Positions 17,644 to 19,434 of a DNA stretch of 40,814 nucleotides are shown piece after piece; position 1 is the first letter of the stretch; each line of letters starts with the position of its first letter. The notes under the pieces are model-generated. The model was not told the DNA's origin, made no database searches, and saw nothing but the letters and a program-made list of their open reading frames with translations. A program made the translations under genes and the position numbers. The stretch comes from Rhodospirillaceae bacterium (GTDB taxonomy: Bacteria > Pseudomonadota > Alphaproteobacteria > UBA6615). The stretch covers positions 1 to 40,814 of the forward strand of contig PASR01000016.1 in assembly GCA_002713365.1 (NCBI GenBank), in the 5' to 3' direction.

Positions 17644-17939
17644 GCCGCATTAGCTCAGTTGGTAGAGCACATCATTCGTAGTTTCAAATTGCGTCCTTAT
17701 TGGGAAACCTTTAGGTGAAAACTCATCAAATTCGGGGAAACCTGTCAAATGGCAATCCCGAGCCAAGTTCCTTATAAAAGGAAAAGGTGTAGAGACTTGA
17801 CGGTGAGTATCTAACCCAACTTCGGTTGGTATGATAAAGGGAAAGTCCAGCGCACGAACACTTCCTCACAGAAGTGGCAATGAAAGTTGTAGTGTGATGA
17901 ATGATGGGGTCGGGTGTTCAAATCACCCATGCGGCACCA
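17644..17939 (+). tRNA. tRNA-Thr(CGU), split by a group I intron
   Basis: Removing 17680-17899 leaves a normal 76-base tRNA. The acceptor arm GCCGCAT (17644-17650) pairs perfectly with ATGCGGC (17929-17935), the discriminator is A, and CCA is encoded (17937-17939). The D arm is GCTC/GAGC with AGTTGGTA. The anticodon stem is CATCA/TGATG with loop TTCGTAA, giving anticodon CGT for threonine codon ACG. The T arm is GGGTG-TTCAAAT-CACCC. The exons are 17644-17679 and 17900-17939. E. coli tRNA-Thr(CGU) has the same anticodon loop. Tools that do not model introns here would miss the gene. Confidence 0.95.
17680..17899 (+). ncRNA. Group I self-splicing intron in the tRNA-Thr anticodon loop
   Basis: The 220-nt intron lies between tRNA positions 36 and 37, follows a U and ends in G, as group I introns require. 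Hand folding gives P1, CGU (17677-17679) with GCG (17691-17693), with U.G at the splice site. P10 is AUU (17688-17690) with 3' exon AAU. P2 has a GAAA loop (17704-17707). P3 is 17721-17727 with 17802-17808. P4 is 17731-17736 with 17757-17762. The P6 extension is 17768-17773 with 17778-17783. P7, the guanosine site, is GACUU (17794-17798) with AAGUC (17843-17847). P8 has a UUCG loop (17821-17824) and P9 is 17859-17864 with 17871-17876. The core strongly resembles the Azoarcus tRNA-Ile intron (IC3). No endonuclease gene is inside. Confidence 0.93.
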
Positions 17940-18027
17940 CTACCTTACCTTTAGACCACCCCTCCGCATTACAATTCAGATGTTCTAAAGGGTAATATTA
18001 ATTCTAGACGTAATAATTTTATAAACG

Positions 18028-19434
18028 CTATTTTAATCTAGATATTATTTCAGGTTCAATAACCGCAGATGAAGAGTCTATTTCTGGTTTTTTCTCAGCT
18101 AATTTGGACCCAAGAGGTAAGTCAGATGGAATTATGGCTCGATGAGCGCGTGGCGGCTGTTTCCAGAGTTGAGTAGCAAATGAATCACAATTCAAACACA
18201 TAGATGCCCAATCATCAGCTACAGTCCCACATTTAGAACATACCCATGTTCTATCTGCTTCAGCTTCAGTAGAGCGATCTATCCATCTACGGGCTGCTAT
18301 ATCATCCTCAGCTCCTAACTCTGCAAGTCTTGCCCACAATCGAAATACACGAGCAGTCGGACTAAGGCGTTCCAGAGCCTCTAGCTGTTGCTTTGTCTCC
18401 CCCCAAAGGCTAGCGGCCAGCGCAGCCTCCGCAATAGCAAATCTACTATCTGGATGGTCACGATTATCTTTTGTAAGCTGAACAACTGAGCGGTAACGAT
18501 CAAGCTCAGAAACATCACCAACTATTTCAAGGTAAGCTTGACACAGCGATGGATGAGGCTCTAAGCGCCAACTTCGTTCAATGATTTTTCTAGAATGTCT
18601 TTTCTTACCCTCCTTAGAAAGTAAGTTCGCGAGCAATACAGTCGCTGCTGAGTTAGTAGGATCTAGATTATAGGCTTTTCTAACCTGCTCAAAAGCCTGA
18701 GATAATTTATTATCATGAATAGACAAACGAGCACGCTCTGTTAATAAGACAGCCTGTTGATATCGTCCTTTCTCTACTGACATCCTCTTATGACGCTGTG
18801 CCTCTTCAACTAATAACTGCGCCTCTCTCCAACGGCCTTCCTTTGTATGCAATGAAACCAAAGTTTCCAATACCCAAGCTGCCGAAGGCTGTAAGAAGTA
18901 TGCACGCTGTGAATACTTAAGTGCACTAGCGTCATCACTGTCACGAAGAGCTTGTAAAATAAGACCTCGTAGCCCCAAAAACTCAGTCTCTGAACGATCA
19001 AGCATTTTCTCAAAATACTGTCTGGCTGCAATTTCATCGCCATCAAGCTGTGCTGCTTGCGCAGATAAAAGTAGCGTTAATGAAGGTTCTTTTAATAAAG
19101 AATCAACTTTACGAGCCAGTTTTTTTGCCACTCTAGCATCGCCCGCTGCTACTGCAGCTAACCCATCTGTTAAAGCTCTATAACCCTTAGCTTCAAGTCG
19201 ATAACGTCTTGACCTTAATATTTCTCGGGGTTGTCTTTTTATCCATTTCCATAAAATATATAAAGTAGATAGAAAAATCACAGTAATTAAAATAGCCAAA
19301 GCCATCACACCGAATGAGGTCTCGAGTTCCCACCCCTGCCACTCAATAAATACTTCACCAGGTCTATCCAGAAACCAAATCACTACTGCAACTGCTACAG
19401 CCACTTCTGTAAAAAATACTACCGTGCGCCACAT
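18028..19434 (-). CDS. hemY: HemY-like membrane TPR protein with C-terminal zinc ribbon
   Basis: A 468-residue protein of the HemY N-terminal-domain family. Two membrane helices (about residues 5-22 and 42-63) are followed by a long helical region of TPR-like repeats (about 90-380). A rubredoxin-like C-terminal zinc ribbon has Cys399, 402, 413 and 416. The bacterial family clusters with heme genes and is thought to scaffold late tetrapyrrole synthesis at the membrane; it is unrelated to HemY protoporphyrinogen oxidase of Bacillus. Its ATG overlaps the stop of the Mic60-like gene by one base, so it is translationally coupled at the end of the hemC-hemD-mic60-hemY series. Confidence 0.88.
   Translation of the reverse strand: MWRTVVFFTEVAVAVAVVIWFLDRPGEVFIEWQGWELETSFGVMALAILITVIFLSTLYILWKWIKRQPREILRSRRYRLEAKGYRALTDGLAAVAAGDARVAKKLARKVDSLLKEPSLTLLLSAQAAQLDGDEIAARQYFEKMLDRSETEFLGLRGLILQALRDSDDASALKYSQRAYFLQPSAAWVLETLVSLHTKEGRWREAQLLVEEAQRHKRMSVEKGRYQQAVLLTERARLSIHDNKLSQAFEQVRKAYNLDPTNSAATVLLANLLSKEGKKRHSRKIIERSWRLEPHPSLCQAYLEIVGDVSELDRYRSVVQLTKDNRDHPDSRFAIAEAALAASLWGETKQQLEALERLSPTARVFRLWARLAELGAEDDIAARRWIDRSTEAEADRTWVCSKCGTVADDWASMCLNCDSFATQLWKQPPRAHRAIIPSDLPLGSKLAEKKPEIDSSSAVIEPEIISRLK

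Follow-up and report, generated by a model that had tools for sequence, protein, structure and literature searches.

The only tRNA-Thr(CGU) gene of an alphaproteobacterial genome is, very probably, split after U36 by a recently acquired, ORF-less, IC3-like group I intron that would self-splice to give a normal tRNA-Thr and that would have arrived by transfer. The gene lies in a window (the whole stretch of DNA that was analysed) of 40,814 nucleotides, positions 1-40,814 on the forward strand of contig PASR01000016.1 from Rhodospirillaceae bacterium GCA_002713365.1, a 2.5 Mb, 100%-complete draft genome.

Host tRNA gene and surroundings

ARAGORN in intron mode identified a single tRNA in the window, tRNA-Thr(CGU), which spans 17644-17939 and whose bases 36 and 37 are separated by an intron of 220 nt; in default mode, with introns off, the scan of the window returned zero tRNA. 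This is the intron-aware search that the first-pass annotation had called for, and the insertion point is the one given there. The joined exons (CATTCGTAATG) are by themselves called as a normal 76-nt tRNA-Thr(CGU) with a perfect cloverleaf and CCA, as had been read from the letters. U17679 precedes the 5' splice site and pairs with G17691 of the guide, and G17899 closes the intron, in agreement with the U and the terminal G that had been pointed out; the site reads ATTCGT^AATGAT and the guide ATTGCG (Table 1).

Genome-wide, ARAGORN called 39 distinct tRNAs among the RF00005 matches, and the other Thr tRNAs were only UGU and GGU. A second, intact CGU gene was sought among these matches and none was found, which confirmed the interrupted gene as the only one with this anticodon and ruled out that it is a dead duplicate of an intact gene. 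In addition, the RF00028 search of the host genome yielded no group I intron besides this one. The gene adjoins hemY, near hemC-hemD-tsaD, and the uninterrupted gene is placed likewise in many alphaproteobacteria; no promoter match better than chance was found beside it. The nearest named match in the tsaD search was an ALOHA alphaproteobacterial MAG, whose name points to a marine source; identity to it is 82% for acs and 62% for hemY.

Table 1. Exons, intron and predicted structural elements of the tRNA-Thr(CGU) gene (positions in the window).
Feature	Position	Strand	Basis
5' exon, bases 1-36, terminating in anticodon CGU	17644-17679	+	ARAGORN intron mode
Group I intron, 220 nt, no ORF, final G	17680-17899	+	RF00028, 62.1 bits; custom model R1 (this intron among its 28 training rows), 128.4 bits at 17717-17854
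3' exon, bases 37-76, CCA encoded	17900-17939	+	ARAGORN
Internal guide GCG, pairs with anticodon CGU 17677-17679 as exon part of P1, U.G at splice site	17691-17693	+	sequence
P1 extension, intron nt 17680-17683 with 17687-17690		+	sequence
AUU, can pair with AAU 17900-17902 of 3' exon as P10	17688-17690	+	sequence
P2 region, imperfect stem, GAAA loop	17695-17715	+	sequence by eye
P3 5' strand, partner 17802-17808	17721-17727	+	compensatory change in 4 of 7 pairs; outermost A-U pair not general
P4 17732-17737/17756-17761; P5 17741-17742/17751-17752	17732-17761	+	100% paired; compensatory G-C/U-A/C-G
P6 17763-17764/17786-17787; P6a 17768-17773/17778-17783	17763-17787	+	alignment; 3 of 6 P6a pairs counted
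P7 17792-17798/17843-17848, bulged A; encloses P3 3' strand and P8	17792-17848	+	100% paired; double changes in two pairs
P8 17809-17811/17833-17835; distal hairpin CCAAC-UUCG-GUUGG	17809-17835	+	base: alignment; distal part: by eye and fold
P9 region, hairpin 17859-17876; second hairpin 17877-17890, GAAA loop	17859-17890	+	minimum-energy fold

Group I core and predicted splicing

The insert had been taken for a group I intron with a complete core, and both parts of this claim stood. It matches RF00028 (Intron_gpI) at 17674-17858 with 62.1 bits (E 1.5e-13), above the Rfam gathering score of 50, and P3 to P8 are backed by compensatory change. Specifically, in alignment A1, which comprises 28 related intron cores, P3, P4, P5, P6, P6a, P7 and P8 make up 29 pairs with 96.6% of cells paired, the P3/P7 pseudoknot included. 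Both sides had changed in 14 pairs, double-change cells numbered 119 as against 31.8 in shuffles, the covariation score was reached by no shuffle, and sliding the partners by 1-3 columns lowered the pairing to 27-47%. A chance insert is excluded because of the Rfam E-value and this covariation; together with the ARAGORN rebuild of the tRNA, they also rule out a mis-called gene.

Reading of the sequence bore out a P1 with three exon base pairs (CGU/GCG) and a P10 (AAU/AUU). GAAA loops are seen by eye at L2 and L9, the IC3 places for GNRA contacts with receptors in P8 and P5, and P7 would, by homology, house the guanosine site. The minimum-energy fold of the intron showed no extra stability relative to shuffles (z -1.01), which is not unusual for pseudoknotted ribozymes but lends the structure no support. 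Neither a homing endonuclease gene nor an ORF of at least 120 aa was found inside the intron; at 220 nt, it has no room for such an endonuclease gene. The core is homologous to those of other bacterial tRNA introns (alignment A1; blastn 76% to Arg(CCU) and Leu(UAA) introns). As judged from its sequence, the intron is of the ORF-less, IC3-like, small bacterial tRNA kind.

Such an intron probably self-splices, by a mechanism that we infer from its family. The precursor would fold with P1 and P10 holding the exons, guanosine bound in P7 would attack the bond between U36 and the intron, the freed CGU end would in turn attack behind the terminal G, releasing a normal CCA-bearing tRNA-Thr. It is very improbable that the intron splices poorly or never and that the gene is silent, with tRNA-Thr(UGU) reading ACG by wobble: tRNA-Thr(UGU) is indeed present in the genome and, of the Thr codons, ACG is used least (49/480 in 20 window ORFs), but the gene has kept all core helices, the splice-site U and G and complete exons including CCA, and the anticodon stem still pairs despite its change from the congeners.

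Empty site in relatives

Two congeners (G001 and G002) carry the same tRNA without the intron at 97% identity, and no group I intron was detected in either genome by RF00028. One G-C pair of their anticodon stem is a matched U-A pair in the window, where the arm pairs across the intron; this change may reflect continued selection on the tRNA or, alternatively, co-conversion with the intron. Among 24 genomes of the window's order, such introns were found in only two others, hosted by Lys(CUU) and Leu(UAA) tRNAs, and none was found in tRNA-Thr(CGU) of the other 23. The survey of related tRNA-Thr(CGU) genes that had been proposed at the outset thus suggests that the intron was gained in, or has rarely been kept by, the host lineage, because the congeners are empty and the other introns of the order sit elsewhere. 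In a separate observation, when the loci of two congeners (L129, L130) were compared with window positions 17644-18028, 0 of 10 window neighbour proteins matched within 1.5 kb, so the tRNA-Thr(CGU) locus has probably been rearranged within the genus.

Related introns in bacteria

Across 385 sampled genomes of the class, RF00028 was positive in 31 and R1 in 50, and R1 was positive in 41 of 398 genomes of the phylum; RF00028, a general family, under-reports introns of the tRNA kind. The host tRNAs called were Leu(UAA), Arg(CCU), Lys(CUU), Lys(UUU), Thr(GGU), Met(CAU), Leu(CAA) and others, as assigned automatically and by manual reading, with L172, L175, L488, L240, L289, L512 and L544 doubtful. 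Two further interrupted Thr(CGU) genes were found in G250 (L526, 231 nt) and G147 (L527, 235 nt), both of another family, f125, and seven genomes of the class carry an intron in Thr(GGU) (G098, G111, G146, G198, G293, G307 and G384). With these other alphaproteobacterial cases, the Thr(CGU) intron of the window is not unique.

The guide pairs with the anticodon in 28 distinct introns inserted after U36 (CCU/GGG, GGU/GCC, CGU/GCG, CAU/GUG); guides in these introns were picked by complementarity, and the match serves as a consistency check and not as an independent test. For L527, the search chose GUG, although an aligned GCG is also present. Intron movement through re-pairing of P1 would be consistent with this agreement between host and guide.

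Two other bacterial loci showed unusual settings. First, at L164 (minus strand) and L004, which belong to two genomes of different families and carry nearly identical introns, the intron-bearing tRNA-Lys(CUU) is directly preceded by the 5' half of tRNA-Lys in a second, truncated copy, an arrangement that resembles the border of an integrated element. Second, no tRNA host was found for a group I intron at L160 (G234; 73.8 bits), and its host may be a protein gene.

Phage introns and origin

The core pattern occurred in at least 120 IMG/VR stretches, most of those classified being tRNA genes, and tRNA genes with this intron family were present on more than 80 viral contigs. The phage hosts (IMG/VR loci L214-L333 and L454-L461) were Leu(UAA) in 61 cases, followed by Arg(UCU), Lys(UUU), Lys(CUU), Thr(UGU), Asn(GUU), Met(CAU) and others. 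Phage Thr(CGU) introns were sought with a loose viral pattern, which gave chance matches only, among the matches listed, so that such introns may still exist in phages; a search with the phage-type core pattern gave zero matches. A capsid gene hosts the intron in Pelagibacter phage HTVC120P and in an uncultured Autographiviridae phage. With the HTVC120P intron removed, its flanks are in frame (...ATFPVMGRTVAAY...) at CCCCGT^AATGGG, the guide being ATTGCG, and the central letters CGT^AATG and the guide are common to this site and the tRNA-Thr(CGU) site. One capsid region of an uncultured Autographiviridae phage (L211, KT997847.1) contains two introns, at 1485-1665 and 2194-2374 (78.0 and 76.9 bits), and its pieces were annotated by the submitters as separate capsid proteins.

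By identity, the cores nearest to that of the window are those of phage tRNA-Arg(UCU) introns (L261, 81%; L269, 80%), followed by Leu(UAA) L003 and Arg(CCU) L188, both at 78%. Trees grouped the window intron with L261 and L269 (support 94/99 and 98/97), on 132 columns and with bootstraps not settled. A specific Azoarcus/Agrobacterium source, as first proposed, was thus not upheld. Arrival by transfer from a related intron is probable, and carriage by phages is plausible.

Two other histories were weighed against this one. The window intron and the two f125 Thr(CGU) introns could represent one old insertion lost by most lineages, as opposed to separate arrivals, a reading that we consider unlikely though quite conceivable. 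Site and host are identical, L526 has the P1-P2 segment closest to that of the window intron (28/37, with GCGTCC and GGTGAAAA in common), and the AU test did not reject a single clade (p 0.141); yet the cores are strongly different, the tree places the f125 introns beside introns of phage capsid genes and of a phage tRNA-Asn, and no such intron was found in tRNA-Thr(CGU) of the other 23 genomes of the order. Arg(CCU) is among the known hosts of bacterial tRNA group I introns, and derivation from such an intron would need one base in the site (ATTCCT^AAT to ATTCGT^AAT) and a guide change from GGG to GCG. Within the class, blastn ranks the Arg(CCU) intron L188 first (76% over 41-220), L188 and the window intron have the 3' end TAGTGTGATG in common, and their pairing was not rejected (AU p 0.363), but the core is closer to the phage Arg(UCU) introns, and we regard this source as unlikely. 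A clade with the capsid introns was not rejected either (p 0.32).

Transfer from a related intron remains our preferred account of the arrival. A wider scheme is doubtful and offered tentatively: phages, marine and other, would be the main carriers of the family, re-seeding the tRNA genes of bacteria at any site that matches the guide, and the intron that entered the Thr(CGU) site would have had a guide suited to the capsid CGT^AATG as well as to the anticodon loop, so that passage between phage protein gene and host tRNA would be possible.

Comparison with known systems

No Thr host was named in the literature searched: the listed titles and abstracts on tRNA-Thr contained no bacterial Thr intron, most subscription papers being outside this scope. 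tRNAscan-SE 2.0 names fMet and Ile2 as intron hosts and leaves Thr unnamed (PMC8450103); a cyanobacterial survey names Leu and fMet from earlier work, Thr again being unnamed (PMC5733544). According to a 2014 review of bacterial group I introns, every phage intron then known sat in protein genes (PMC3984707), and one paper cites a private communication to the effect that invasion of tRNAs is frequent. Thr(CGU) is a host not found in the literature searched, and the element itself is of a known kind.

Thr(CGU) joins the few bacterial tRNAs for which splicing by a ribozyme would be required, and tRNA finders run with intron mode off lose such genes. Furthermore, the survey suggests that many anticodon loops of bacteria and phages are occupied, with the guide fitting the anticodon; this broad occupation is more interesting than the single Thr(CGU) case, and host change by ORF-less group I introns, an old question, becomes testable.

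The known bacterial tRNA group I introns, in Leu(UAA), fMet, Ile(CAU) and Arg(CCU) (Azoarcus, Anabaena, Synechocystis, Agrobacterium), are alike in being small and ORF-less or nearly so. They share with the window intron a position after U in the anticodon loop, a P1 with about three exon pairs, a terminal G and GAAA loops, whereas the host, Thr(CGU), sets the window intron apart. With respect to Rfam, the window intron matches RF00028 above its gathering score, although the model misses many of the tRNA kind. The introns in phage tRNA-Arg(UCU) (L261, L269), huge-phage tRNA-Leu(UAA) (L212) and pelagiphage capsid genes (L210, L211) belong to the same core family in different host genes, and the pelagiphage capsid introns carry guide ATTGCG, with CGT^AATG as the site of L210.
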